Assembly: GCA_027449865.1 (NCBI GenBank)
Contig: DAIDKV010000097.1
Coordinates: 62,001 to 126,000, forward strand
Direction of reading: 5' to 3'
DNA: 64,000 nucleotides
Source of the DNA: Planctomycetales bacterium
GTDB taxonomy: Bacteria > Planctomycetota > Planctomycetia > Isosphaerales > Isosphaeraceae
Shown here one piece after another: positions 32,935 to 51,528 of this stretch (position 1 is the first letter of the stretch; each line of letters opens with the position of its first letter). The position numbers and the translations under genes are program-made. The notes under the pieces are model-generated. The model saw only the letters and a list, made by a program, of their open reading frames with translations. It did no database searches and was not told the DNA's origin.

Positions 32935-34482
32935 ATGGACGAGTGGGAGCTGCCGCTGGAGGAGACCGAAGAGTTCGAGGCTCCGGCCGTCGAGGGGGTC
33001 TCACCGGCCGACGCGGGTTGGAAGGACGAGTTGAACCTCGCGGAGTTCCCGATCGCGGCACTGACGGACCGCGTGCCCGACGGCCAGACGACGATGGTCT
33101 TCGAGGACCGAATGGAGCGCCGGGACAGCGCCCCGATCATCCGTCGGCTGACGATCATGGGAACGCACAAGCACGGCCTGCCGACCGCGACCGACGACGA
33201 GGTTCTGGTGGGCCTGATCCAGTTGACCAAGCGGCGGAGCAACTTCACGGATGCCCGGGTGCAGTTCTCGCGGTACGAGCTGATCGAGCTGCTGGGGTGG
33301 CCGCAGAGCGGCCAGAGCTACCGACGGATCGAGGAAGCCCTGCACCGTTGGGTGGGCGTCGTGCTGATGTACGAGAACGCCTGGTGGGACAACATCGCCA
33401 AGAGCTGGGTGGACGAGCAGTTCCACGTTCTGGACAACGTGACGCTCTACGACCGGGAGCGGTGGCGGAGCACCCGGCGCAACGGGAAGGGAGATCGGGG
33501 CGGGAAGCCGGACAAGCCCCCCCTGCCCCTTTCGAGCTTCCGCTGGAACGAGGTGATCTTCCAGAGCTTCCAGAGCGGGAACCTGAAGCAGCTTGACCTG
33601 GAGTTTTACCTGAAGCTCCGGCTACCGACGACGAAGCGGATGTACCGGTTCCTGGACAAGCGGTTTTATCGGCGGTCCCGGCTGGATTTCGACCTGCGAT
33701 CGCTGGCCTGCGAGCATATCGGGCTGAGCCGGTCGTATGCGCCGACCGAGCTGAAGCGTCGGCTGAAGCCGGCACTTGAGGAGCTGGAGCAACTGGGCTT
33801 TCTCGAACCGCTCGCGCCGGAGGAACGCTACTCGTACGTCAAACGAGGGTGCTGGCGGATTATCTTCATCCGGGGCGGCCGTGCGACAGCGGTGGCGCAG
33901 GACCCCTCGGAGCGCGAGGAGCATGGGCCGGACGAACTCATCGGGGCGTTGAAGGAGCGGGGCGTCACCGCGAGGACGGCCCAGGAACTGGTCGAGGCGC
34001 ACCCGGCGGCCCGGGTTCGGACCAAGATCGAGGTCTTCGACTGGCTGATGAAGAACGAGGACCGAAGGGTCGGCAAGAATCCGGCGGGCTACCTGGTCGC
34101 TTCGATCCGGTCGGACTACAAGCCGCCGGAGGACTTCCGGACCCAGGAGAAGGCCGCGAAGACGGCCGGCAAGGTCAAGGCCGTGGCCGAGGCCAGGGCG
34201 CGGCAAGAGGAGGCCCGCGCTCGGGATGAGGCCGAGCGCGACAAGGCGCGCGAGCAGAGGCTTCGCGCGGCCTGGGAGCAGCTTCCCGAGTCGGAACGCG
34301 ACGCGATCCGAGCCGCGGTCAAGGCCGAGAATCCAGGGATCGGCCGATGGAAGACCATGCTCGAGCCGCTCTGCCTGGCGGCCCTGGAGGCCCGGCTCGG
34401 CCCGGACACCGAGACCCCATCGAAACCAGACGAAGGACAACGCCTTCTTTTCCCCGACGCCCGGCCGGTCAAGACGAAGTAG
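32935..34482 (+). CDS. repA: Replication initiator protein A (RepA-type plasmid initiator)
   Basis: 515 residues. The central region (about 60-310) follows the RPA/replication-initiator-A family: RRLTIMGTHKHGLPTATDDE, VLVGLIQLTKRRSNF, FSRYELIELLGW, then LPLSSFRWNEVIFQSFQSGN, LDLEFYLKLRLPTTKRMYRF and LDFDLRSLACEHIGLS. These read as tandem winged-helix DNA-binding domains like other iteron initiators. The C terminus (about 390-515) is a charged coiled coil (EARARQEEARARDEAERDKA) plus a helical end. It should bind the upstream iterons and melt the origin. Together with parA this marks a replicon; whether it is autonomous or integrated cannot be decided here. Confidence 0.88.
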   Translation: MDEWELPLEETEEFEAPAVEGVSPADAGWKDELNLAEFPIAALTDRVPDGQTTMVFEDRMERRDSAPIIRRLTIMGTHKHGLPTATDDEVLVGLIQLTKRRSNFTDARVQFSRYELIELLGWPQSGQSYRRIEEALHRWVGVVLMYENAWWDNIAKSWVDEQFHVLDNVTLYDRERWRSTRRNGKGDRGGKPDKPPLPLSSFRWNEVIFQSFQSGNLKQLDLEFYLKLRLPTTKRMYRFLDKRFYRRSRLDFDLRSLACEHIGLSRSYAPTELKRRLKPALEELEQLGFLEPLAPEERYSYVKRGCWRIIFIRGGRATAVAQDPSEREEHGPDELIGALKERGVTARTAQELVEAHPAARVRTKIEVFDWLMKNEDRRVGKNPAGYLVASIRSDYKPPEDFRTQEKAAKTAGKVKAVAEARARQEEARARDEAERDKAREQRLRAAWEQLPESERDAIRAAVKAENPGIGRWKTMLEPLCLAALEARLGPDTETPSKPDEGQRLLFPDARPVKTK

Positions 34483-36616: not shown

Positions 36617-37123
36617 TCAGGCGGCCGACTCGTCGAGGTCGCGGTCGGCGGCGGAGTCGGCGTTGCGGCCTCGGCGGTCGCGCGAGTCGTAGAGAACCAT
36701 CGAGGCGACGATCGGTCGGAGCAGGTCGTTGACGACGTCGGAGCGGTCCTTGCCGACGTGGATCGCGTAGAGCCAGAGCTTCTTGTCGAGCTCTTCCTCA
36801 ATCGCGAACATCCGCTGGACCCGACGGGGCTTCGCCGGCTTCACCCGCGACGCTCGCGACCGCGACGAGGACGACGACCCTGACCCCGACCCCGAGGAAA
36901 TCCTCGGAACGGGTTCCGGCTCGGGCGCCGCCAGTGCCGACGGTGGCTCAGGGGGATCGGGTATCGGCGCTGGCATCGGTGACGGCGCCGGAGACGGCTC
37001 GGCGGCCGGCACCGAGGCGACGATCCGACGCTCAAACTCCGCCTCGGTCATGCTGGGCCGGGTCAATCCGGTCCGGCTCTCGGGGCCCGGGATCCCCCCG
37101 CGCCGCAACGAACCACTGCTCAT
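36617..37123 (-). CDS. Ribbon-helix-helix protein, putative centromere-binding partner of ParA
   Basis: 168 residues from ATG 37123, 25 bp after the parA stop; a longer frame starting inside parA is less likely. The first ~110 residues are disordered, Pro/Ser/Ala-rich (SPAPSPMPAPIPDPPEPP) and end in a basic stretch (RSRASRVKPAKPRRVQ). The C-terminal block RMFAIEEELDKKLWLYAIHV-GKDRSDVVNDLLRPIV fits a ribbon-helix-helix DNA-binding fold: one strand, a helix, the G-x-D-R-S turn and a second helix. RHH proteins such as ParG bind arrays of short repeats and stimulate ParA through a flexible N terminus, which this layout matches. Confidence 0.72.
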   Translation of the reverse strand: MSSGSLRRGGIPGPESRTGLTRPSMTEAEFERRIVASVPAAEPSPAPSPMPAPIPDPPEPPSALAAPEPEPVPRISSGSGSGSSSSSRSRASRVKPAKPRRVQRMFAIEEELDKKLWLYAIHVGKDRSDVVNDLLRPIVASMVLYDSRDRRGRNADSAADRDLDESAA

Positions 37124-37148: not shown

Positions 37149-37985
37149 TCAGGCCGCCACATCCCCCGCCGATTCGGCCTCGGCCACGCCCTCACCCTTC
37201 GCCGCGACGCGAGAGTCGCCGAGGTACGCCGAGGCCGCTTCCCGATATGCGTCGGCTCCCGCGCAGTACCGGTCGTAATGGATCAGCGGAACCCCCCGCG
37301 CGTAGGCCTCCCGGAACTTCACCGAGATCGGGACCACCCGGTCGTAGACCAGCGGTCCGAAGTACGCGCGAACCTCCGACTCGATCTGCTTGGAGACCAG
37401 GGTTCGGTCGGCTCGCGTGACCAGGACCCCGGCGATCGAGAGCGGTCCGGCGTCGGTGAACTCCATCCGGAACTCGCTGACCGTCCGGATCAGGTCCTCC
37501 AGCGCCCGGACCCCGGCGAGCGCCGCGACGCAGGGGTCGATCGGGATCAGGATCTCCGAGACCGCGTAGAGGATCGCCACGTTCAGCGGGGTCAGGACCG
37601 GACTGGTGTCGACCACGACCACATCGTAGCCGTCGAGCCCCTTCAACAGCCGGCGGATCCGGAACTCACGCCCCTGGCCGAGCCCCTGCGTGCTCCCCAT
37701 TTGCTCGGAGCAAAGACTGAGGCGGTCGCCAGGCGGGACCACGTCCAGGCCCGGGTACTCGGTCGAGACCGCGACGTCCTCAAGTCTCAGACTGTCGAGG
37801 AGCGCGTCGGCCAGGCCAATCCCTGGGGCACCCCGGGCGAAGAACCCGAGCGCGGCATTCCCCGACGGGTCGGCGTCGATGAGAAGCACGCGACGGCCGA
37901 GCTCCGCCATCGCCGCGCCGAGGTTGATCGCGGATGTGCTCTTGCCGACCCCCCCCTTCGCATTGGTCACCGCGACGCTGCGCAC
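37149..37985 (-). CDS. parA: ParA family partition ATPase
   Basis: 278 residues. The start is set at GTG 37985 (MRSVAVTNAKGG) because AAGGGGGG lies just upstream and the longer frame to 38177 merely translates the repeat region. The deviant Walker A KGGVGKST is at 10-17, with Walker A' LLIDADPSGNAALGF and Walker B DVVVVDTSPVLTP. It segregates replicons by forming ATP-dependent patterns on the nucleoid together with a centromere-binding protein, here probably the RHH protein encoded next. The lack of a long N-terminal HTH extension makes it a small (type Ib-like) ParA, which usually pairs with RHH partners. Confidence 0.93.
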   Translation of the reverse strand: MRSVAVTNAKGGVGKSTSAINLGAAMAELGRRVLLIDADPSGNAALGFFARGAPGIGLADALLDSLRLEDVAVSTEYPGLDVVPPGDRLSLCSEQMGSTQGLGQGREFRIRRLLKGLDGYDVVVVDTSPVLTPLNVAILYAVSEILIPIDPCVAALAGVRALEDLIRTVSEFRMEFTDAGPLSIAGVLVTRADRTLVSKQIESEVRAYFGPLVYDRVVPISVKFREAYARGVPLIHYDRYCAGADAYREAASAYLGDSRVAAKGEGVAEAESAGDVAA

Positions 37986-38059
37986 CAGCCACCCCCCTTC
38001 CCCACCGCACAGGCCCGGCCACTCCCGGCCCCAACCCAAAAGGCCACACACTCTTATCG

Positions 38060-39290
38060 GCCGACCTTGGCCCCTCGATGAATGGTTACCCATGAATCCA
38101 GGTTCCCAGGTTCCAGGAAACCTCGATTCCCAGCGACCCAGGAACCAGGAAACCCTGGCTTCCTGGAACCTTGGCATCAGGGAACCTCGACACCAATGGA
38201 CCCTGGCACCTCGGTTTCCAGGTTCCCCGCGACCTTGATACCGAGAAACCTGTTGACCATGACCCCCGTTTCCCAGGGTTCATTGGAACCTTGGCAACAC
38301 GAGCACATCGGTTTCAGGCTACCCTGGCACTGCATTCACCAGGGTAGCCTGGTCACCACATAACCCCGGTCCCCACGTTCCTTGGTCGCTGGGTACCCAT
38401 TATCCAAGGTCAAGCCAGCACCTTGATCCCAATGAAACCTGTTTTCTGAAGACAAATGGAGACCCTGTTGTCATGGTGACCTGGCCGCCAGGATACCAGG
38501 GCAACATGGCAGTCCATCGACCATGGCAGTCCATCGACCATGGCAGTCCATCGACCATGGGACTCTCACAAACTTGATCCCTTGAATTCATCGACCACCT
38601 TGATCCCTTGACTTGATGGCACCTGCTTCACCCTGGTGCCTTTAGTTCCTTGACCAAATTGGCGAATAGGTCCCTCGGCTCCCAGGTTCATGGAGTAACC
38701 TGGTTCCTGCATCAGAATGGTCGTTCAGGTCGCTGGGTTCCAGGGTTTCAAGGTCATCCATGAGCATCAGGCACCATGGGACCTGGGGTGACAAGCCACC
38801 CTGACATCAAGGTCTTGCTATTGCCTGTACCGCCATGGTCTCCAGCGGCCAGGATCAACTTGGAAACATGGAGAACAGGAAACCAGGGCGCCTTGAAGAC
38901 GAGGCGACTCATTTGCCAGGGTTCACAGAGACCTGGTTTTCATGTTCTCCCAGGTACCATGGTTCCACCGCTGGCTTGATGCCTTGGCCATCGCTTTGCC
39001 AAGATATCAAGGTTCCCAATCCTCCTTGATTCCCGTGCGACCCAGGTAAGACGGCACCAAGGTACCAAGCCGCCGAGGTCCGGCAGGTCATGGCAGTACC
39101 CAGGACCCAGAGGTTCCCTGGACCAGCACTCGCCTTGATCCCTGGGAACCAAGGCGTCCAGGGCAACAAGGTTCCTTTATCACCCAGGAAACTCAGGCAC
39201 CAGGAAACCAGGGCGCCTGGGCATCCAGTCGACGCCATCACCAGGGGATCAGGGTTCCTGTGGAACCTGGAGACCTGGGTCCCTCGACGA
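38060..39290. repeat. Dense array of degenerate CCWGG/CCWWGG-type words, putative centromere (parC)
   Basis: About 1.2 kb upstream of parA without genes. It is built almost wholly of short words such as ACCTTGG, CCAGGTTCC, CCATGG, CCAAGGT and ACCTTGATCCC, in both orientations. I count more than 50 CCWGG/CCWWGG or CCTTG/CAAGG words by eye, often 10-25 bp apart. Base composition is clearly less GC-rich than the flanking genes. RHH partition proteins bind such arrays of short repeats, so this is the best centromere candidate. Dcm-type methylation targets are an alternative reading. Confidence 0.6.
38505..38555. repeat. Three perfect 17-bp tandem repeats
   Basis: CATGGCAGTCCATCGAC is repeated three times head to tail (38505-38521, 38522-38538, 38539-38555) and followed by CATGG. 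It lies inside the degenerate array; perfect copies suggest recent expansion. Confidence 0.95.
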
Positions 39291-39744
39291 TCGAAACCCG
39301 ACGACCACGCCGGGCCAGACGCGGCTCATCGAACCGAGTCCGAGAGAGCAGGGCAGGGGGGCCGACGCCCGGTCGGTCGGATCAAGACCGCCCCCGAACC
39401 GCTTCTCAGAAGGAAATCATTTCCGAATTCCTGGTCTACCCCATTGACATGACTGATTACGAGCCTGCATTATATCCAGCTATTGTGCGTGCGTGTTCTG
39501 CGGGGGTGGATTGTCGGGAATTTGCGGGATGGTCGACGGGGGTGAAGGGCGTTGGGGATTCGGAGCGGGAAAGGTTTCGGGAGTCGGATCGAGAAAATTT
39601 GACTCGGCGGGGTTGGGCCTGCATGTTTTCTCGATTCCTTGAACCTTGCCCGGCCTGGGTGTCCTGTGCAGGCCGCATAACCGGAATCTCTGCCGCACGC
39701 ATCGCGGTGCGAACATCGAGGCGACCTAAGGGGAGCTGGGGGAC
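39291..39744. other. ~450-bp region upstream of the giant gene
   Basis: No gene recognised. It is comparatively AT-rich near 39410-39490 and probably holds the promoter of the giant gene, which has GGGGAG-type ribosome-binding sequence directly before ATG 39745. Confidence 0.4.
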
Positions 39745-42700
39745 ATGGCCATGGGTACGGGAGCGTCGGGCGGCTCGCTTCGGGGGTCTCGTGGTGGCGA
39801 CGGCCGTGGGGCGAGGGCCGCGAAGTCGCGGCGATTCCGCCTTCAGCGGATCGAGCTGGAGGGGCTGGAGGCGCGGACGCTGCTGTCGACCCTACCGGCG
39901 GCGTCGACCAACGGATCGATCCAGAACCTGACGAACTTGGGGCGGGTGACGACCGGCGGCAACGCGGTCAGCCCGACGGTGGCGATCGATCCGAATAACC
40001 CGAACGATATGGTCTCGGTCTGGGCGCTGGACATCTCGACGCTGAGCCCGGTGCCGCACACCACGACCGTCATCCAGGGGAAGTTCTCGACCGACGGCGG
40101 GAATACGTGGACGCCCTTCGATCCGGTGAACCCGATCCTCGACGCCGCGACGATCGATTCCACGCCGCCGACGGCTTACACCCAGGTAACCGATCCGAGC
40201 GTGGCGTTCGACGCGAACGGGAACTTCTACGTCTCAGCGTTGCAGACCAGCGGCGCGACGGACGGCGCGATTACGCTGACCGCGTTTCAGTTGAGCGGTG
40301 GATTCAAGCCGATCATCCAGCCGTACGCGCCGACTGTCGTGTATCAGTGGCTGACGACCTCGGACGCGGCCTACAGTCCGACGCTTGCGGTGGACGCTTC
40401 GACGGCGAACCCGGTGTATACGGGGGCCAACGACCCCTACAGCGGGAATATCTACGTCGCCTGGGCGAGCGGCGATATCCACCCCGCCAATCCCAACGTG
40501 GAAACCAATTACAACCCCAACCGGATCGAGATGGTCGTCTCGTCCGACGGTGGGAACTCGTTCAGCGGCCCCTCGATTCTGAACTCGAATGGAAACTTCG
40601 GGCCGCAGAAGGATTCGCATCCCCAGATTCTGATCAACCAGGTTGGGACTCCGTTCATTGGGACGCTGGCCAGTGGATCGGCGGTTGTGACCGGTGTCAC
40701 GGCCAGCGGATTCAAGGTTGGCGAGGATGTCAGCGGCGTGGGGATACCGGCCGGGACGACGATCGCGTCCCTCGGCGGGACCACCTTGACTCTCTCGCAG
40801 GCGGCGACCGCGAGCACGTCGGGAGCGTCGCAGGCGCTGGTGGCTGGTCTGGGAACGGTCACGGCCGGCTGGGAAGACTTCGGCACCGGTCCGGCAGGGG
40901 GGTCGAACACGACCTACATCACGACGAACAACGTGCAGCCCGGCCAGTCGTTCCAGTTCAGTAATCTTTCGGGCGGGGTGATCAATCCTGGGACCGCGGG
41001 CAGTGGTTCGGCTGATAATCCCGTCTCGACGAGTTTCCCGATTCCTGTGAGTGGATTCAGTGCGGCGACGATCGCGGCCCTCAGCAATCTGACAGTCTCG
41101 CTCTCGATCACGCACCCGACGCTCAGCGACATCTCGGCGGTGCTCCAGGCTCCCAACGGCGGTCCCAGCATTACGCTGTTCCTGAACTCAACCAACGCGG
41201 CCGGGACGAACAGCACGTTTTTCGGTCTCTCGGGTGCCAACCTCGGTATCTTCGGCCAGAGCACCACCAACCCGGGGATTACCTTCTCCCAGGGTGACAA
41301 CAACATCGCGACGATCTTCACCGACACTGCCACCCGCAATATCTTCGATCCGACCACCACCGGCACAAATGGCAATGCCGCGCCCTACGTCGGCTACTTC
41401 CGGCCCGAGGTTGGCTCACTCGATGCGTTCCTCGCAAGTGTGGCCGCGGGTGGGACAAATGCAATCAACGGCACGTGGAACCTGATCGTCACGGATTACC
41501 GGACTGAGACCACGCCGGGCTTCCTCAACGGGGTGAACCTGCATTTCAACACGAACATGTCCGTCGGGACGCCGCACGTCATCAGCGCGGCGCTGGCGGT
41601 TCCTGGTTCCATCACCGACACCTACCCGACGGCCATCCCAGCGGCGCCCGCCACGGGTGCCGGACCTGGGCTGGTGATGGCGATCGACAACACGGTCGGT
41701 CCGAACATCACGACGACGGGAGTCTCTCGCGGTACTCAGTTCCAGGGCCGGATCTACGCGGCCTTCGTGGGGTATCTGCCGCTGGAATACCCACCGAACA
41801 CCAAGAACCCGACGTCGAACACCGACATCTTTTTGATGTACTCGGATAACGGGGGCACGACCTGGCAGCTTGCCAACGGCGGTAACCCAGTCAACAACGA
41901 CAACGCCGTCAACGACGGCTTCTCGCAGGCGAATGAGAATATCGACCCGGCCTCGCCGACCGGCCGGACGCAGTTCATGCCCGCGATCGCCGTGGACCCG
42001 ACCACCGGGACGGTGGTCATGTCGTGGCGTGATGCCCGGTACGACGTCGCGAACACACGGGTCGTCACCGAGATCGCGACCAGCATCGATGGCGGTCAGT
42101 CGTTCAGCCCGCAGACCTACGCCAACCCCTCGCAGACGGCCGTCGACGCGATCACCGGCAACACGGTGGTCATGTCGCCGATGGGAGACAACCAGGGGGG
42201 GGCCAACGGTCAGGCCGATGGGAACTACAACTACGGGACCCAGATGGGCCTGGCCGCCTACGGCGGTCAGATTTATCCGATCTGGGCGGGGAACCTGAAT
42301 CAGTCTCACATCACGAGTGGGGCCGTCAAAGGCAACCCGCTCAATATCTTCTATCAGCCGATGACCATCGGCGCCGGTCCCCGAATCGTGAACAGCACGA
42401 TGGGACCGATTCCGCTCTCCGAGGCCCAGAGTGGGGTTGTCACGTTCTCGGTGACCTTCGACCGGCCCGTTGACCCGACCACGTTCGTGCCTGGCGATGT
42501 TCAGGTCTTCTATCACAGTCCCACCAACGGATCCTCGTTCGTTCCGCTGTTCGTCTCGGGCGTGGCCCCGATGACCAGCAGCGGCGTCGGCCCCACGAAT
42601 ACCCTGGGAAATAGCGCCTACGGGTACACCCAGTTCACGGTCACTTTCAATCCCACCCTCGCGGCCAACGGGACGACGCCCAGCGGGATCACCAACTTCA

Positions 42701-45700
42701 CCGGGACGTACAGCTACCTGATCGCGCCCGACAACGGCGCCGGCCTCGCCATTGCCTCGCCGGTCTGGACAGCGGCCAACGGAATCGTCACCCGCCAGGG
42801 CGACCCGATGGACCAGAACGCCAACGGGACGGTCGACGAGAACGCGGTGACCACGTCGTACACCGGCCTGACCCCCGGCGACGTCTACGCGGACCCCGCG
42901 CCGAATCCGACGACTCCGGTCACTTTCAACGGCGCCACCTCGATCCTGACCCCGCCGTTCAATCAGAACACGCTGCCGCTGATCGTCCCCGGGCCGTACG
43001 TTTCGGGTTCGCAGGCTATCGGCGTCAATTCCTCGGGTCAGACTCAGCGGTCGACCAGCGGCGACAACCTGTTACTCAACGCCACGAGCAGCATGTTCAA
43101 CGTGCTGTTCGACCGGCCGATCCAGGCCAGCACATTCACCGGTGACCAGACCTCGACGATCACGATCATGGGGCCCGCCGGATCGGTGACGGGTCCGCAG
43201 TCGTTCGCCTCGACGTCGTTCGGCCAGACGATCCCGAGCGCGACCGCCGCCGGGCCGGGCGTGCTGACGGTTCCGCTCTCGGTTCCCAGCTCCAACAACA
43301 CGTTCCTCATCGAGCAGCTCTCGGTTGCGTTCAGCCTCGCGATGACCGACAACACGCAGCTCTCGATGTCGCTGATCTCGCCGACCGGACAGATCATCCC
43401 ACTTCTCTCGGGCCTGACCGGGTCGAACTTCACGAACACGGTTCTGCTGGACAACCCTGCGAATGAGCCGCCCTCGATCGCCGGTGGGACGGCGCCGTTC
43501 ACCGGGACCTACATGCCGGCTTACCCGGTGGGGAATACCCAGACGCTCGCCGGGCTGAAGGGGCAGTCGGCCGATGGAACCTGGTATCTCCAGATCTCCA
43601 ACGCCAGCAAGAGCCTCACGGGGACGCTCGATAACTGGTCGCTGAACATCACGCCGGAGATCCAGGTCGTCCCGGTCGCGCCCGTCAACGGGCTGACGAA
43701 CAGCTTCAACATTCTGTTCCCGCAGCAGTCGCTGAGCGGGACGTACACGATCAATTTCGGGCCGAACGCGTTGCAGGCGAACGGCACGCTGGGCCCGATC
43801 CTCGACCAGTTCGGCAACGCGATCGACACGACGCAGGTGGCCGGTCTCGATGTGCTTCGGGGCCAGGGGACGAACGCGCCGGTGACGACGGTTCAGTACG
43901 GCGCCCCCGGGCTTCCGCAGCCGATCCCGGCTCAGACCGGCGCGACGCCGGGCCAGATTGTTTCGACGATCTCGGTGCCGGACAACTTCGTGGTGCAGGG
44001 AGACACGACCAGCTCGGGAGTCGCCGGGCTCCAGGTGCAGTTGAACGCGAGCTTCGCGAACGACCCCAATCTCTCGGCGACGCTCTACTACAACTACGGT
44101 CAGGCCGGCCAGATCGCGGTTCCACTCTTCAGCAACGTCGGGTCGGGAACGCAGACGGCAAATTTCAACAACACGATCTTCAACGACAACGCCGCAACGC
44201 CGGTCCAGGCGGGCTCGGCGCCGTTCTTCTCGACGTTCACGCCGCAGATGCCGCTCTCGGCGTTCGCGGGCCTCAACGCGATGGGGAACTGGACGCTGGT
44301 CCTTCAGAACAGCTCGACCTCGCTGACCGGAACGCTCAACGGCTGGTCGCTGATCTTCCAGAAGCCACTGCCAACCAGTGGGATGGGCGTGCCGGGGCAG
44401 GACGCCGTCGGCGTCGGCTTCCGGCTCTTCACAATGGCGCCCTCCAACGCGCTGTCGTCGCAGTCGTGGACGGCGGTCGGTCCAGCGGCGATTGGGTCCA
44501 GCTCGCAGACCGGGGGTATCAACGGGGGAGCCGAGTCGTCGGGCGCTGGTGGTGCCGGCCGCGTCTCGGGGCTGGCGATCGACCCGTCGGACCCGTCGGG
44601 GAACACGGTCTACGCGGCCGGGGCCAGCGGCGGTGTCTGGAAGACGACCAACTTCCTGGCGCCCGGCGGCCCGACCTGGGTCCCGCTGACCGACTTTGGC
44701 CCGACCACCTCGCTGAACATCGGCAGCATCGCCGTCTTCCCGCGCAACCACAACCCGAACCAGACGGTGATCATCGCCGCGACCGGCGAGGGGAACACCG
44801 GGACGCCCGGTGTTGGCTTCCTGATCTCCACCGACGGCGGCCAGACCTGGACGCTCTCTGATAGCACCGTCAACGTTGATGCCAACGGCAACCCGCTTCC
44901 GTTGAATTCGACGGCCCGCGACCGGGCCTTCGTTGGGACGACCGCCTTCAAGGTCGTGGTCGATCCTCAGCCGACGCCCAGCGGCAACGTGATCATCTAT
45001 GCGGCCCTCAGCGGGAACAACGGCGGGATCTGGCGGAGCGAGGACACCGGCAAGACCTGGACGAAGATGCTCGCCGGCAACGCCACCGACGTCGTCCTCG
45101 ATCCGAATAGCGGGATCACCCTCGACCCGGCCACCAATACCGACGTCCAGGGGAATCTCCAGATTGTCTATGCCGCGCTCGTCGGGTCGAGCGGCGGTGT
45201 CTACATGAGCCCGAACCAGGGCCAGGTCTGGAACCAGATGCTCGGCGGGGTCGGCAATCCGCTGATCTACGATGGGTATAACTTCACCCGAGGGAACGTC
45301 AACCCGAAGAATAGCGGCAACCCGAACGGTTCGGCCGGCCGGATCGCCCTGGCCGTCCCGCCCGCCGACCCGAACAACGCTGCGGCCTCGGCCGTCTACT
45401 CGGGCTGGCTGTACGCCGCTGTCTCCGATAGCAGCGGCAAGTTCACCGGCCTGTACATGACCAAGGACTTCGGCCAGAACTGGGTTGATGTCCACATCGC
45501 GTCGGTGGCTCCCAACGGCGCCGCGACCGTCCAGGCGATCCCCACCAACGATATCAGCCAGCCGAATTACCCGATCACCGGCGGCGCCGGTTTCCTCGGC
45601 GCTCAGGGGACGTACGACCTGACCCTGAACGTCGATCCGGCCAATCCCAACGTCGTCTACCTCGGTGGGACCCAGGACGGCGGCCAGACCGGTCTGATCC

Positions 45701-48700
45701 GGATCGACACCACCACCATCTGGGACGCCCACGCCAACGTCCCATACACCAACGTCGGCCCCGGAGGTAACCTCAACCTCAACTCCACCGGCGCGGCGAC
45801 GGTTGACGACAAGACGAAGGGGTATTTCACCCTCGTCCCCGGCGACACCACCTCGTACCTGAACTTCATTCGCAACCCGAATCAGCCGTTCCTCTCCAGC
45901 CCGACGCTCGAGACCTTCAACGTCAACGCCTTCACGGCCAGCGGGTTCGGCGTGAAGTGGATTCCCTTCGACGTTGGCGGGACCGACTACCACGCCGTCG
46001 CCGGGATGATCGACCCGCTCACCGGCCTGCCTCGCCTGATCTTCGGCAACGATCAGGGAATCTGGAGCGTCCTGGATAACAACGGAACCTTCCAGACCCA
46101 GATCGGAAGCAACGACACGCTGGCGGGGATCAACCGCAACGGCAATATCCAGATCACCCAGTTCTACTACGGTGCGGCGCAGCCAAGTCTCCAGGCGGCG
46201 ATCAAGGCCGACGCGATGTACTACGGCAGCGCCCAGGACAACGGCGGTCCGGTCTCGGCCCCCAATGTCCTCACCACCGGCAACATCACCTGGGGCGGAC
46301 CGGGCGGCGACGCGACCGGCGTGGCGACCAACCAGCAAGGGGACGGCTCGGCCTACCAGTTCTTCTGGCCCTGCTGCGGAGGAAACTCGACCGACTTCTT
46401 CCAGTACATCCCCGCCGGCCTCAGCGGGTCGGGTGCCTACATCGGCCGGACCTACGGCCTGTTCGCCCAGAGCGGATCGTTCCCCAGCCCCGACCCGACT
46501 CAGTGGCCGTACGAGGGCGGCGCCAACTTCGCCGTCAACCCGGTCAACGGTGCTGACGTGATGATCAGCTCGAACACCGGCGCCATCTACACGACGACCA
46601 ATAGCGGCGTGACCTGGTTCAACGTCGGTGCCGCCTCGATCTTCAATAGCCCGGGCGGCTTCAGCGACGCGCTGGCCTACGGGGCCCCCGATCCGTCGGC
46701 ACCCTCGGGGATCGGCAACCTCAATAACTTCCTCTATGTCGGGACGGACAAGGGCCAGATCTACGTCTCGCAGGACGGCGGCGGCGCGAACGGCAATAGC
46801 TGGATCAACATCTCGACCGGCCTCGACGGATCGACGGTCAAGCAGATCATCACCGACCCGGTCCGCGGAAGCCACGACGCCTACGCCGTGACCTCCGGCG
46901 GTGTCTTCTACATGGCCAATTCGATCCCATCGGCGAGTAACACGCCGACCTGGGTCAACATCACGAGCAACCTCAAGAACCTCGCCTACTCGATTAACGG
47001 TCAGCCGTACAACCCGACGACCGATCCCAACTCGGTCACGTACAACCAGGCGATCAATCTGAACGCGATCGCCGCCGAATGGCAGTACGCGATCCCCAAT
47101 AGCCCGACCAATCCCTCGGCCGGCTATCACCCGGTTCTGTTCGTCGGGGCCGATTCGGGCGTCTACGAGTCGCTGGATAACGGCCAGACCTGGTCGCTCT
47201 TCCCGCAATCAACCCTTGGCGCCGCTCAGTCCAACGGCAACCTGCCGCACGTCGCGGTCAACTCGCTGAGCCTCTCGCTGGGCAACGTTGACCCGAGCAC
47301 CGGGATGTCAACGCTGGCCGGGCCGTATCAGGTCGTCTCCTTCAACGGGACGATCACCAACGGATCGGCCACCATCACCAACGCGAGCAACCTGAACGGT
47401 CTGGCCGCGGGTGACATCGTGACCGTCGCCGGTGTGACCGGTGGGTTCACGATCGCCTCGGTCAACACCAGCAACAACAGCCTGACGCTCACGGCCCCGA
47501 TCAACTTCACCGGGACCAGCCCCGAGTCGGTCGCTCTCCAGGCGTCGAACCCGACCGCCGCCGCCGATCCCAACACGCTGATGGCCGCAACCTACGGCCG
47601 GGGCGAGTACGCGATCAACCTGGCGCCGATTGTGCTTCCGTCGTCGGTCGCGTTCCTGTCAACGAACTCGACGACGACGGATTCGGCCGGCTACACGGTC
47701 GTCAACACGTCGAAGCCGACGCTGAACGGCCTCAGCTCGATGACGGCCTACGGCAACACGACCTGGGTCACGATCAAGGACATGACCCCGGGCGACGCGA
47801 CCTACGGTCAGGTCATCGGCGGGTTCGACCCCAGCCAGCCGCTTCAGGCGAACTCGGGCAACTCGACCGACGCGTTGGGTAACTTCACGATCCCGGTCAC
47901 CTCGGCGCTCAACTCGAACACGATCAGCCTGACTGGGTCGCTGACCGCCGGATCGGCCACGATTACCGGGCTGAGCACGGTCATCGGGCTGGTGGCGGGC
48001 ATGCCGATCGCCGGTCCGGGAATCCAGCCTGGGACGACGATCCAGGGGATCTCCGGGACGACGCTGACGCTCTCTCGGAACGCCCTGGTCGGCGGAACGG
48101 GCGTCTCGCTGCTGGCGAACCTCAAGACGATCGAGGTCTACACGACCAACGACGCCGGGGCGCAGAGCAACCCGGTCATGCTGACCTTCGATTTGCAGGC
48201 CACCGACCTCCCGCCGGTGGCACCGACTGCCCCGCCGCCGGCGCCCACCCTCCAGATCGACCTGCCTGGACCGGCGCAGACGGGCACTCCGGTGACCAAC
48301 CTCACCTCGCCGCTCTTCACGGGAACAACCATCCCCGGAACGAGCGTGACGGTCACCGAGGTCTGGACGAACCCGCCGACCGGCGTCACCCCGTCGCCGA
48401 TCGTTTTCCAGCCAACGGTGAACGCCAGCGGTTCCTACAGCTTCAACTTCCAGGATTTCCAGAACCCGACCGGCGTCAACGTGACCCTGGGCACGTTCCA
48501 GGTTTATGCGACAGCCGCGTACACCTACGACCCGAATCACGAGGGGCCCTCGGCGCAGTCGAACACGGTGACGTTCCAGATCAACGACGTCCCGCCGCCA
48601 GCCGTGAGCGACCTGCGGCTCTCACCGGCGACCGACACGGGAATCCTGGGCGACAACGTGACCAGCGACCGGACTCCGGTGTTCGTCGGGACGACCGAGC

Positions 48701-51528
48701 CGGGAAGCACCGTGAACTTCTACCTCGGGACGACGTTCGACGGGGCCGTCGTGAACGGTTCGGCGAACGTGGACGTCACAAGCACGACGGGGCTAAGGGC
48801 CGGCGAGACGGTCGTCGGGACCGGGGTCCCGCCCGGAACGACGATCCTTCAGATCAACCCGGCCTCGGGCGCGACGCCAGCCCAGGTCGTCCTCTCGCAG
48901 GCGGCGACCGCCACCAGCGCCGGTAATGAGGTTCTGGGCGCGGGGAGCCAGGAATCGAGCGTCACGGCGGGGATCTCGTTCAACGGGACGACCACCGTTG
49001 GATCGGCGACAGTCCTGGTCGCCAGCACGACTGGCCTGGCCGTGGGCGAGGGAATCGTCGGTCCTGGAATCGCGGGCGGGTCGAAGATCACGAACATCAC
49101 GCCGCTGGGCTCGGGCGAATCGCTTCTGACGCTCTCGCTGGCCGCGACGGCCGGCCAGGCGCAGGGCCTGACCGCCAGCGGGGCGGCGTTCACCGGCAAC
49201 CTTTCGCTGGGCTCGGCGATCGTCTCGAACGTTTCGAGTGCGGCCGGCCTCTCGGTCGGCGAGGTGGTGATCGGGTCGGGTATCCCGGCCGGAGCGACGA
49301 TCACGGCGATCGACACGACGAACCCGGCCGACATCATCGTGACGCTCTCGGCGGCCTCGACGACCAACACCACCGGGGCGAGCCTGACGCCGACCGTTCC
49401 CGGCATCGCCGGAACGCTGACGCCGGGATCGGCGACGGTCCTGGTCGGCAGCACGGCCTTGCTCTCCGTCGGCCAGACCGTGAGCGGGGTGGGGATTCCG
49501 AGCGGAACGACGATCGCCTCGATCGACACGACCGACTCGGTGATCACGCTCTCGCAGGCCGCGACCGGCGGAAGCACCTCGTCGCTCACGGCGACCGGTC
49601 CGATCTTCACGGGGAGCGTTACCAACGGCTCGCCGATCGTGGCCGTCTCGAGTTCGGCGGGCCTGGCTGTCGGCCAGTTCGTCTTCGGAGTCGGCCTGCC
49701 GGCGGCGGGGGCGATGATCCAGTCGGTCGATTCGGCCACGCAGATCACCCTCAACACCAGCGCGACGACCACCGCGGCGCTGGAGACCCTCTACGCGGCC
49801 TCGGCGGCGAGCGACGGAGCCTCGTACGACTTCTCCACGCAGCTCCCGTTCTCGCTGAGCAACGGCCAGACCTCGGTCTTCGTGGTGGTGCAAAACGCGG
49901 CGGGTAATCTCTCGGCGGCGAGCAATCCGACGACCGTGCAGATTGTCTCGAACCCGGCCGACTACAACGGCGGCCCGGCCTCGGATCCGGCCTCGTTCAC
50001 CCGGAACACGACCACCAATCAGGTGCAGTGGACGGTCCAGACGCCGACGGGGACGCCGGCGCCCTGGTTCGGGCCGAGCGGCGTGGCCTACACACCCTCG
50101 ACGACCGTTCTGGCCAGCCAGGTTGTCCCGTTCCAGGGCGACTTCGACGGGACCGGCCTGACGGGGTTTGCCTACTACAACATCGCCACGGCGACCTGGA
50201 CGGTGCTCAACGCCTCGACGGCGGCCATTTCGGGGCCGAGCACCTTCGTCCAGGGAACGCCCAACCAGAGCCTGCCGGTGGTCGGTCACTTCGATCCCAA
50301 CGGCCCGGCCGAGATGGCGGTCTTCACTCCGAGCACCGGAACCTGGATCATCGCCAGCAACATCACCGGGTCGCGGTCGTTCACCTTCGGGCAGTCGGGC
50401 GATATCCCGATCGCGGGCGACTTCCTCGGGCTGGGTTACGACCAGGCCGCCGTCTACCGGTCGAGCACTAACCAGTTCCTGGTGTACAACCCGCAGTCGC
50501 CGTCGAGCCCGACGATCTTCACGATCCCGGCGAGCACGCCCGACCTCTCCAGCCTGGTCCCGGTTCCTGGTCAGTACGACAATCAGGCGTATTTCAACGC
50601 CGCGACCCACGGGACGAACCAGCCGATCTTCGGCCAGACCGAGGCGGCCGTTTACGACCCGATCACGGGGAACTACACGATCCTCGGCCCTGGCGGGACG
50701 GCGTACACGATCACCGGGTTCCCGGCCAACGGCATTCCGGCACCGGCCGACTACCTCGGTATCGGGTCGGATCAACCGGCGGTCCTCAACCCGACGACCG
50801 GCGTGCTGGTCATCTACAACCCGGGGGCGGGCAACGCCCCGTCGGCGCTGAAGGGTGGGCTCGTCAACTTCGCCACGCTCCCCGCCGGCTCGATCGCGGT
50901 GACATCGCCTCTGCCGTACCGGCTTCCGGGCGCGGGTCTCGCGTTGGGCACCGGTGGAAACGGCGGCTCGGGCGGCCTGACGACCGGTGGTCCGGGCAGC
51001 GGTTCGACCGGTAGCCCTGGCAGCGGCTCGGGCAGCGGCACGACCGGCAGCCCTGGCGGCGGCTCGGGCAGCGGCACGACCGGCCAGACGCCTGGCGGTG
51101 GCTCGGGCGGTAGCCTGACGACCTCGCCTGGTGGCGGCGGTGGCTCGTCGTCGGGCCTCGGCACCACCGGGACGCCTGGCGGCGGCTCGTCGGCCGGGAC
51201 GCCGTCGCAGTCTGGTGGAACCAGCCCAGGGAACGGCGGCGGGCCCGTGGAGATCGGAGTCGTTGGCAAGCATCACCGGCATCACCTGGTGAAGAAGAAG
51301 GCGCACCCGACCCGTCACGCCGTCAAGAAGGGGCCTCACCACATCGCGGCGAGGCCCGCGCATGGACACCACCGACACGTGATCCAGGTCATCCCGGCGG
51401 ATCACCACGCGGCCCCGGCTTTCGCGACCGGCGGTCACCTCGCTCACAAGCAGCACGCGGTTGACCTGGCGATCGAGGCCGTTCACGTGAACCTTCACCA
51501 CAACCGGAAGTCGGGCCACTCGGCCTGA
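39745..51528 (+). CDS. Giant secreted multidomain repeat protein (Asp-box, P-domain-like modules, 65-residue repeats, His-rich tail)
   Basis: 3927 residues. The N terminus is basic and ends in LEGLEARTLLS (about 38-48), a planctomycete export-associated motif. Asp-box/sialidase-like repeats follow (STDGGNTWTPF, SDNGGTTWQL), and a second, longer Asp-box region lies at about 1570-2620 (GASGGVWKTTN, STDGGQTWTL, SEDTGKTWTK). Three proprotein-convertase P-domain-like beta modules lie at about 392-603, 1151-1305 and 1405-1542, each ending in G-T-x-x-x-W-x-L. A ~65-residue module with the pattern GSAxV...GxxVxGxGIPxGTTI occurs eight times: once near 306-367, then 2532-2602, 2729-2792 and five times at 2995-3352. 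FG-GAP-like repeats (about 3435-3718), a Gly/Ser-rich linker and a cationic His-rich tail (3839-3927) complete it. Likely surface-exposed or adhesive; no protease domain is seen. Confidence 0.85.
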   Translation: MAMGTGASGGSLRGSRGGDGRGARAAKSRRFRLQRIELEGLEARTLLSTLPAASTNGSIQNLTNLGRVTTGGNAVSPTVAIDPNNPNDMVSVWALDISTLSPVPHTTTVIQGKFSTDGGNTWTPFDPVNPILDAATIDSTPPTAYTQVTDPSVAFDANGNFYVSALQTSGATDGAITLTAFQLSGGFKPIIQPYAPTVVYQWLTTSDAAYSPTLAVDASTANPVYTGANDPYSGNIYVAWASGDIHPANPNVETNYNPNRIEMVVSSDGGNSFSGPSILNSNGNFGPQKDSHPQILINQVGTPFIGTLASGSAVVTGVTASGFKVGEDVSGVGIPAGTTIASLGGTTLTLSQAATASTSGASQALVAGLGTVTAGWEDFGTGPAGGSNTTYITTNNVQPGQSFQFSNLSGGVINPGTAGSGSADNPVSTSFPIPVSGFSAATIAALSNLTVSLSITHPTLSDISAVLQAPNGGPSITLFLNSTNAAGTNSTFFGLSGANLGIFGQSTTNPGITFSQGDNNIATIFTDTATRNIFDPTTTGTNGNAAPYVGYFRPEVGSLDAFLASVAAGGTNAINGTWNLIVTDYRTETTPGFLNGVNLHFNTNMSVGTPHVISAALAVPGSITDTYPTAIPAAPATGAGPGLVMAIDNTVGPNITTTGVSRGTQFQGRIYAAFVGYLPLEYPPNTKNPTSNTDIFLMYSDNGGTTWQLANGGNPVNNDNAVNDGFSQANENIDPASPTGRTQFMPAIAVDPTTGTVVMSWRDARYDVANTRVVTEIATSIDGGQSFSPQTYANPSQTAVDAITGNTVVMSPMGDNQGGANGQADGNYNYGTQMGLAAYGGQIYPIWAGNLNQSHITSGAVKGNPLNIFYQPMTIGAGPRIVNSTMGPIPLSEAQSGVVTFSVTFDRPVDPTTFVPGDVQVFYHSPTNGSSFVPLFVSGVAPMTSSGVGPTNTLGNSAYGYTQFTVTFNPTLAANGTTPSGITNFTGTYSYLIAPDNGAGLAIASPVWTAANGIVTRQGDPMDQNANGTVDENAVTTSYTGLTPGDVYADPAPNPTTPVTFNGATSILTPPFNQNTLPLIVPGPYVSGSQAIGVNSSGQTQRSTSGDNLLLNATSSMFNVLFDRPIQASTFTGDQTSTITIMGPAGSVTGPQSFASTSFGQTIPSATAAGPGVLTVPLSVPSSNNTFLIEQLSVAFSLAMTDNTQLSMSLISPTGQIIPLLSGLTGSNFTNTVLLDNPANEPPSIAGGTAPFTGTYMPAYPVGNTQTLAGLKGQSADGTWYLQISNASKSLTGTLDNWSLNITPEIQVVPVAPVNGLTNSFNILFPQQSLSGTYTINFGPNALQANGTLGPILDQFGNAIDTTQVAGLDVLRGQGTNAPVTTVQYGAPGLPQPIPAQTGATPGQIVSTISVPDNFVVQGDTTSSGVAGLQVQLNASFANDPNLSATLYYNYGQAGQIAVPLFSNVGSGTQTANFNNTIFNDNAATPVQAGSAPFFSTFTPQMPLSAFAGLNAMGNWTLVLQNSSTSLTGTLNGWSLIFQKPLPTSGMGVPGQDAVGVGFRLFTMAPSNALSSQSWTAVGPAAIGSSSQTGGINGGAESSGAGGAGRVSGLAIDPSDPSGNTVYAAGASGGVWKTTNFLAPGGPTWVPLTDFGPTTSLNIGSIAVFPRNHNPNQTVIIAATGEGNTGTPGVGFLISTDGGQTWTLSDSTVNVDANGNPLPLNSTARDRAFVGTTAFKVVVDPQPTPSGNVIIYAALSGNNGGIWRSEDTGKTWTKMLAGNATDVVLDPNSGITLDPATNTDVQGNLQIVYAALVGSSGGVYMSPNQGQVWNQMLGGVGNPLIYDGYNFTRGNVNPKNSGNPNGSAGRIALAVPPADPNNAAASAVYSGWLYAAVSDSSGKFTGLYMTKDFGQNWVDVHIASVAPNGAATVQAIPTNDISQPNYPITGGAGFLGAQGTYDLTLNVDPANPNVVYLGGTQDGGQTGLIRIDTTTIWDAHANVPYTNVGPGGNLNLNSTGAATVDDKTKGYFTLVPGDTTSYLNFIRNPNQPFLSSPTLETFNVNAFTASGFGVKWIPFDVGGTDYHAVAGMIDPLTGLPRLIFGNDQGIWSVLDNNGTFQTQIGSNDTLAGINRNGNIQITQFYYGAAQPSLQAAIKADAMYYGSAQDNGGPVSAPNVLTTGNITWGGPGGDATGVATNQQGDGSAYQFFWPCCGGNSTDFFQYIPAGLSGSGAYIGRTYGLFAQSGSFPSPDPTQWPYEGGANFAVNPVNGADVMISSNTGAIYTTTNSGVTWFNVGAASIFNSPGGFSDALAYGAPDPSAPSGIGNLNNFLYVGTDKGQIYVSQDGGGANGNSWINISTGLDGSTVKQIITDPVRGSHDAYAVTSGGVFYMANSIPSASNTPTWVNITSNLKNLAYSINGQPYNPTTDPNSVTYNQAINLNAIAAEWQYAIPNSPTNPSAGYHPVLFVGADSGVYESLDNGQTWSLFPQSTLGAAQSNGNLPHVAVNSLSLSLGNVDPSTGMSTLAGPYQVVSFNGTITNGSATITNASNLNGLAAGDIVTVAGVTGGFTIASVNTSNNSLTLTAPINFTGTSPESVALQASNPTAAADPNTLMAATYGRGEYAINLAPIVLPSSVAFLSTNSTTTDSAGYTVVNTSKPTLNGLSSMTAYGNTTWVTIKDMTPGDATYGQVIGGFDPSQPLQANSGNSTDALGNFTIPVTSALNSNTISLTGSLTAGSATITGLSTVIGLVAGMPIAGPGIQPGTTIQGISGTTLTLSRNALVGGTGVSLLANLKTIEVYTTNDAGAQSNPVMLTFDLQATDLPPVAPTAPPPAPTLQIDLPGPAQTGTPVTNLTSPLFTGTTIPGTSVTVTEVWTNPPTGVTPSPIVFQPTVNASGSYSFNFQDFQNPTGVNVTLGTFQVYATAAYTYDPNHEGPSAQSNTVTFQINDVPPPAVSDLRLSPATDTGILGDNVTSDRTPVFVGTTEPGSTVNFYLGTTFDGAVVNGSANVDVTSTTGLRAGETVVGTGVPPGTTILQINPASGATPAQVVLSQAATATSAGNEVLGAGSQESSVTAGISFNGTTTVGSATVLVASTTGLAVGEGIVGPGIAGGSKITNITPLGSGESLLTLSLAATAGQAQGLTASGAAFTGNLSLGSAIVSNVSSAAGLSVGEVVIGSGIPAGATITAIDTTNPADIIVTLSAASTTNTTGASLTPTVPGIAGTLTPGSATVLVGSTALLSVGQTVSGVGIPSGTTIASIDTTDSVITLSQAATGGSTSSLTATGPIFTGSVTNGSPIVAVSSSAGLAVGQFVFGVGLPAAGAMIQSVDSATQITLNTSATTTAALETLYAASAASDGASYDFSTQLPFSLSNGQTSVFVVVQNAAGNLSAASNPTTVQIVSNPADYNGGPASDPASFTRNTTTNQVQWTVQTPTGTPAPWFGPSGVAYTPSTTVLASQVVPFQGDFDGTGLTGFAYYNIATATWTVLNASTAAISGPSTFVQGTPNQSLPVVGHFDPNGPAEMAVFTPSTGTWIIASNITGSRSFTFGQSGDIPIAGDFLGLGYDQAAVYRSSTNQFLVYNPQSPSSPTIFTIPASTPDLSSLVPVPGQYDNQAYFNAATHGTNQPIFGQTEAAVYDPITGNYTILGPGGTAYTITGFPANGIPAPADYLGIGSDQPAVLNPTTGVLVIYNPGAGNAPSALKGGLVNFATLPAGSIAVTSPLPYRLPGAGLALGTGGNGGSGGLTTGGPGSGSTGSPGSGSGSGTTGSPGGGSGSGTTGQTPGGGSGGSLTTSPGGGGGSSSGLGTTGTPGGGSSAGTPSQSGGTSPGNGGGPVEIGVVGKHHRHHLVKKKAHPTRHAVKKGPHHIAARPAHGHHRHVIQVIPADHHAAPAFATGGHLAHKQHAVDLAIEAVHVNLHHNRKSGHSA

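Follow-up and report, generated by a model that had tools for sequence, protein, structure and literature searches.

A kilobase array of short palindromic units upstream of parA, a candidate centromere of a planctomycete plasmid

Introduction

Upstream of a parA gene in the window, by which we mean the whole 64-kb stretch of DNA that was analyzed, lies a gene-free region of about 1.2 kb built of short, degenerate words. What is so long a run of similar words for, and what reads it? An earlier note on this DNA had placed the region at 38060-39290 and suggested a candidate centromere, perhaps of a new class. Literature searches, with subscription journals largely outside their coverage, returned no paper on such arrays.

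Results

The array consists of contiguous palindromic units

The features needed for the argument are listed with their window coordinates.

32935..34482, plus strand: repA, replication initiator protein A (Pfam RPA, 2.8e-11)
36617..37123, minus strand: gene for a putative RHH-type protein of 168 aa, the next gene after parA
37149..37985, minus strand: parA, a Walker-type partition ATPase of 278 aa (Pfam AAA_31, 1.1e-30; CbiA, 3.4e-22)
37986..38063, no strand: gap between the parA start and the array, the expected location of the parA ribosome-binding site and perhaps of its promoter
38064..39292, no strand: array of ~148 degenerate units in tandem, each 8 bp (107 units) or 9 bp (41 units) long, with the palindromic consensus RCCWWGGY(N)
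38505..38560, plus strand: 17-bp direct repeat inside the array, 3.3 copies of one 8-bp and one 9-bp unit each

The array boundaries, as given by a hidden Markov model (HMM), agree with those proposed earlier. Autocorrelation, which had been recommended as a check, revealed a strong 8.3-bp periodicity that the earlier note did not contain, with z scores of 8.9 at lag 8, 11.3 at lag 17, 8.6 at lag 25, 8.1 at lag 33, and 7.9 at lag 50. The period equals the mean unit length of 8.3 bp, a quarter of the units in the window being 9 bp long, and it is not matched by codons. As claimed before, CCWGG- and CCWWGG-type words were enriched: dinucleotide-preserving shuffles gave 7.6 CCWGG against 38 in the array, 3.3 CCWWGG against 14, and 1.4 GGAACC/GGTTCC against 16.

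A cyclic HMM that was given no prior motif returned a palindrome, A/G-C-C-W-W-G-G-T/C, as the unit of the type-1 systems to which the window belongs. A ninth base may follow the unit, and in most type-1 groups it does so in 17-30% of cases. The log-likelihood gain of this model over a first-order Markov model was 0.27 bits per base for the window array; 38 other window segments averaged 0.06 and reached 0.18 at most, and shuffles fell below 0. Moreover, the key C and the key G were both present in 100 of the 149 units (counting a partial end unit), and individual units, beyond the average, are therefore palindromic. The earlier note had described its words as occurring in both orientations, and they do; they are not loose words, however, as CCWGG, CCWWGG, GGTTCC, and CCTTGATCC appear in both orientations because they are half-sites of the one palindromic unit RCCWWGGY(N). 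The 17-bp direct repeat at 38505..38560 is a recent duplication within the array, and 34 bp of that stretch are missing from a same-genus relative.

Within the window, periodicity scores above 0.09 over 200 bp were found in the array only. Over 300 bp, scores in the array had a median of 0.145 and peaked at 0.24, compared with a maximum of 0.061 in a control of ~1.06 Mb that comprised the chromosomal contigs of the same genome (~0.8 Mb sampled), the rest of the contig, and the remainder of two closed plasmids. Further plasmid sequence gave isolated scores of up to 0.071, still lower than those of arrays. A DNA similarity search of the array against its own genome returned nothing significant by E value besides the array itself, as expected because the sites are degenerate.

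The array adjoins a partition gene pair on what is most likely a plasmid

The parA start was placed at a GTG near 37985 by the onset of homology and an RBS-like GGGGAAGGGGGG; a reading frame starting at 38177, inside the array, was rejected as over-extended on the evidence of homology and the ribosome-binding site. Orthologues of parA on closed plasmids are annotated as ParA family protein. The repA gene lies ~2 kb beyond the RHH gene, and on type-1 contigs RepA is 55-81% identical and adjoins the parA-RHH pair. The contig that holds the window is 159,530 bp long, carries repA, and lacks a terminal overlap, i.e., is not closed. The same parA-RHH-repA set is found on the closed circular plasmids pPL62-1 (strain SH-PL62), PALBO1 (Paludisphaera borealis), and pOJF2_1 (Aquisphaera giovannonii), on each of which the RHH gene is labeled "hypothetical protein." The contig as a whole is homologous to these plasmids. 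Because the set occurs on closed circular plasmids, we conclude that the window most likely derives from a plasmid of an Isosphaeraceae planctomycete.

On the other side of the array, an open reading frame of 3927 aa (39745-51528), whose first third matches P-domain and BNR, is predicted to encode a giant secreted or surface protein of the plasmid.

The gene after parA likely encodes an RHH protein with an arginine-rich tail

The earlier note had paired a small ParA with an RHH protein carrying an arginine-containing N terminus; the Pfam matches bear out the ParA, and the second protein was found to have a conserved arginine-rich tail and, likely, the predicted fold. In an alignment from 21 type-1 plasmids, the N-terminal tail of the 168-aa protein was invariant (RRGGIPGP..RTGL.RP.M.EAEFER) and was followed by a variable, low-complexity, disordered linker and a C-terminal RHH-like core, RVQRMFAIEEELDKKLWLYAIHVGKDRSDVVNDLL. 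In all 21, the gene was small and lay beside parA. The type-1 protein matched no Pfam family, ParG included, and no PDB sequence. Profile comparison nevertheless joined it to the type-2 RHH proteins described below (hhalign E, 1.9e-6), and the type-2 profile matched the RHH part of MatP (E, 7e-4).

The AlphaFold monomer of the 168-aa protein had low confidence overall, with two confident, rightly placed helices; it had no beta-strand, the beta-ribbon being absent because the model is of a monomer. When the nine candidates returned by Foldseek were realigned, four rows reached a Z of ≥2 (MazE, TacA2, MatP, and CdbA; Z, 2.9-4.5), all of which we take to be RHH proteins. Profile and model comparisons thus point to a likely RHH fold for the type-1 protein. 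A survey of 392 genomes sampled from the phylum detected type-1 RHH proteins in Isosphaeraceae only, plus one marginal match with stop codons.

Arrays accompany ParA-RHH pairs across the family

The flanks of parA genes from the planctomycete family were scanned without an assumed period, and for circular records that begin with parA, the array was located at the opposite end of the record. At nearly all loci with an RHH gene next to parA, the strongest period was 8.0-8.45 bp and lay immediately upstream of parA. Comparison of the regions upstream of orthologous parA genes, another check recommended earlier, found arrays at 20 of 20 in other genomes, the window excluded. Overall, an array was present at 32 of 33 ParA-RHH loci and at none of 8 loci with a classical ParB as partner (Fisher p = 9e-8, a value that overstates independence, as the loci are related). 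Arrays thus track the RHH partner. Neither of the refuting conditions of the earlier note that could be computed was borne out, as the words exceed shuffled expectation and orthologous parA genes do have arrays, and the proposal of a candidate centromere is supported. Array lengths in the family ranged from 0.4 to 1.8 kb: type-1 arrays were mostly 1-1.5 kb (range, 0.6-1.7 kb, the shortest being cut by a contig end), and type-2 arrays spanned the full 0.4-1.8 kb.

The sole ParA-RHH locus without an array, G028:C5, carries an IS5-like element ~120 bp upstream of parA (L096, 8232-9164, with the matching terminal repeats CTATCCGGTAA/TTACCGGATAG), and the array is otherwise gone. That plasmid has a second ParA with a ParB, and G028:C8, in the same cell, has a near-identical RHH protein and an intact array. 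The case looks like centromere loss under incompatibility.

On the main chromosome of the same genome (L220, G028:C2), decayed parA-RHH fragments lie with an array resembling that of class t2d (see below), probably a relic of an integrated plasmid. On one contig of another genome (L088, G026:C153), a ParA-RHH locus with its array and, a few kilobases off, a ParB with another ParA are two partition systems side by side. PALBO1 and PALBO2 have been proposed to be held together, their ParA and ParB being on separate plasmids (PMC5352709). PALBO1 (NZ_CP019083.1, L106) itself carries an RHH partner (WP_145952402.1) and an array, and a ParB from PALBO2 is therefore unnecessary for the ParA of PALBO1, which undercuts that suggestion.

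Each RHH class has its own palindrome

The RHH proteins form two groups: type 1, that of the window, with a nearly invariant core, and type 2, which is more varied and was divided into four classes. The unit consensus sequences of the five classes are as follows.

type 1: RCCWWGGY
t2a: CYCRYGRG
t2b: CYKWRGNN
t2c: AGSSCTNN
t2d: GRCGYCNN

In all five classes, the consensus found by the unsupervised cyclic HMM was palindromic, t2b and t2d each being modeled on one array. Single-array fits were made of all arrays besides, and the weakest palindrome was that of L088, of class t2d (r = 0.71); for a single array, the permutation test for palindromicity cannot go much below p = 0.04, as many row orders are equally palindromic.

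By 5-mer profile, the nearest array shared the RHH class in 29 of 30 cases (permutation p < 2e-4). Different-class arrays of one genome correlated at an r of 0.05-0.32, compared with a within-class mean of 0.48. We conclude that the array follows the protein and not the host. A further RHH variant (KQHTAYLPLAVHEQL...) was seen at L215 (G010:C76), next to a fragment of parA; the array there is shorter and contains many words similar to ACGCGTAT, possibly a sixth code.

The sequence of the array drifts while its palindrome core is conserved

Arrays of different species were mostly unalignable, with any match in only 76 of 870 ordered pairs, chiefly at the parA-proximal end. The array of a same-genus plasmid was 76.5% identical to that of the window, compared with 88-93% for parA, the RHH gene, and both flanks and 90.5% for the gap at 37986..38063. 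Identity along the two arrays gave no simple periodogram peak; the signal appeared when unit phases were assigned by an HMM whose training arrays all came from other species. In that analysis, 257 of 286 central C and G positions were conserved (90%), compared with 615 of 857 other positions (72%; p = 5e-11), and phase was unchanged at 87% of aligned bases. The larger length differences between the two arrays, of 56, 34, 9, and 8 bp, come close to whole numbers of units. Conservation of phase and core, together with length differences of this kind, is as expected from selection on many weak, phased sites. We conclude that the palindrome core is under purifying selection.

Discussion

Type Ib partition systems have a centromere upstream of the operon, RHH proteins with a flexible Arg-finger tail, and wrapped protein-DNA complexes (PMC5016525, PMC7308502). 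At the locus studied here, a Walker-type ParA gene lies beside the site, the site itself, upstream of the par operon, is a series of short repeated boxes, and the 168-aa protein has a tail with conserved arginines and a disordered linker. We conclude that the array is very probably the centromere of a type Ib partition system (ParA, RHH protein, and cis site) on a 160-kb planctomycete plasmid. By analogy with the known systems, we infer that the RHH protein binds the array, for which the change of array words with RHH class is indirect support, and we propose each 8- or 9-bp unit as the site of one RHH dimer. The array probably doubles as the parA operator, and it may have a further role, its length being many times the known type Ib need.

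Could the array instead be a very long autoregulatory operator of parA and the RHH gene only, with the real centromere elsewhere? RHH centromere proteins do double as repressors (PMC5016525), and the parA-proximal end is the part that can still be aligned between species. One operator, however, needs few sites rather than ~150, the plasmids scanned in full held no second array, and type Ib operators and centromeres share the same boxes, such that the two roles are not exclusive; we consider an operator without centromere function unlikely. A different function, organization of plasmid DNA by compaction or by a nucleoid-associated RHH filament while ParA serves something else, would accord with the length of the array, which fits a filament, and with the class-2 RHH profile, which is closest in sequence to that of MatP, a macrodomain organizer. 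This is very unlikely, as the arrays are strictly tied to a ParA gene and, at any one locus, an array and a ParB partner exclude each other; compaction may itself belong to partition.

Replication-origin iterons or a RepA binding region might be suspected, given that repA is near the array on type-1 plasmids. On G037:C2, however, a RepA 72.5% identical to that of the window occurs with a ParB partner and no array, which is evidence against iterons, and the words of the array track RHH class; an origin function is extremely unlikely. Finally, the array could be an artifact of composition or repeats, or an intergenic repeat found genome-wide in the planctomycete family. Slippage could yield similar degenerate words, and CCTTGATCCC was found 75 times in the genome, a count for which the reversed control word offers weak contrast because it contains CTAG. 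The other CCTTGATCCC sites examined had no 8.3-bp array, however, nor did more than 1 Mb of control sequence, and conservation is specific to position within the unit, with a palindromic code in every class. Contradicted already by the control scan, the unit-position conservation, and the palindromic codes, an artifact or dispersed repeat retains virtually no probability.

If the array is a type Ib centromere, each unit would be the major-groove site of one RHH dimer, contacted via an antiparallel beta-ribbon. Dimers on contiguous 8-bp sites would touch and wind as a superhelix along ~1.2 kb of DNA, and such a filament, in register, would expose some 300 flexible N-terminal tails. Arginines in the tails would stimulate ATP hydrolysis by nucleoid-bound ParA, and the plasmid would follow the ParA gradient, such that copies separate. 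Binding at the parA-proximal end of the array would probably repress parA and the RHH gene. Turnover of units by duplication and point change would let the array diverge quickly, selection based on avidity would keep the spacing and the palindrome, and a change in RHH specificity would create a new compatible class.

More broadly, and with about as much doubt as confidence, we propose that these arrays represent a lineage of "regional" plasmid centromeres: kilobase arrays that are free to drift in sequence, are set by 8-bp phasing and a degenerate palindrome, and would be recognized as a whole by a filament of about 150 RHH dimers. The at least five recognition codes would have arisen by RHH-array coevolution and would serve as incompatibility groups. 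Such arrays would be the bacterial analogue of centromeres that evolve fast and are defined by their architecture. The RHH centromeres that we found in the literature have tens of sites at most, and the planctomycete arrays have 100 or more. With at least 100 degenerate yet in-register sites, the need for more than a few centromere sites becomes directly testable. Moreover, five RHH classes with five palindromes lend themselves to the study of RHH-DNA recognition and of the rise of plasmid compatibility groups, and the 8-bp periodicity offers annotators a simple means of recognizing a partner gene that is at present labeled "hypothetical protein."

Comparison with known systems

The use of contiguous 8-bp palindromes by RHH dimers is familiar from MetJ and its met boxes. 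MetJ is a chromosomal repressor with 2-5 boxes and does not form a partition system. GRCGYC, the code of class t2d, is similar to the met box, AGACGTCT.

The F plasmid sopC/parS site (type Ia) is also a repeated centromere near parA, with twelve 43-bp repeats and ~0.5 kb in total (PMC9178275), but its repeats are few, long, and near-identical and are served by an HTH ParB with spreading; ParA-ParB plasmids of the planctomycete family are without an 8-bp array. In the delta-omega system of pSM19035, an RHH protein also occupies short sites that adjoin one another upstream of the ParA gene, and ParA activation needs four or more contiguous sites (PMC9499535). It differs in having 7-bp heptads, 7-10 per site and at several sites (PMC5016525), whereas the window has one array of ~150 8/9-bp palindromes; the scan used here picked up the heptads of an omega system in pKL0018 over ~150 bp.

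In TP228 ParFGH, the centromere is upstream of the ParA gene, as in the planctomycete arrays, and the gene for an RHH protein whose flexible tail has Arg-finger motifs follows directly (PMC7308502). In the same scan, an IncX1 parFG locus showed degenerate boxes with an 8-bp period; of the TP228-like controls, L182 was set aside because an IS truncates parF and parH is missing, and L184 was used instead. The array is not TP228 parH proper, which has tetramer (ACTC) boxes in AT-rich spacers, whereas the planctomycete unit is a contiguous palindrome, RCCWWGGY, with 17-30% 9-bp spacings, and the planctomycete RHH protein had no detectable sequence match to ParG. The TP228-type parH with its operator took up ~300 bp in the scan, compared with typically 1-1.5 kb for planctomycete arrays and ~150 units in the window, and the earlier note was right that the size, several-fold that of parH or parS, exceeds the usual. 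Its "new centromere class" was too strong, as type Ib systems, TP228 parFGH among them, share the architecture, 8-bp period included. The type Ib architecture is already known; the novelty lies in the scale of the arrays, in their palindrome codes, and in their diversification across the family.
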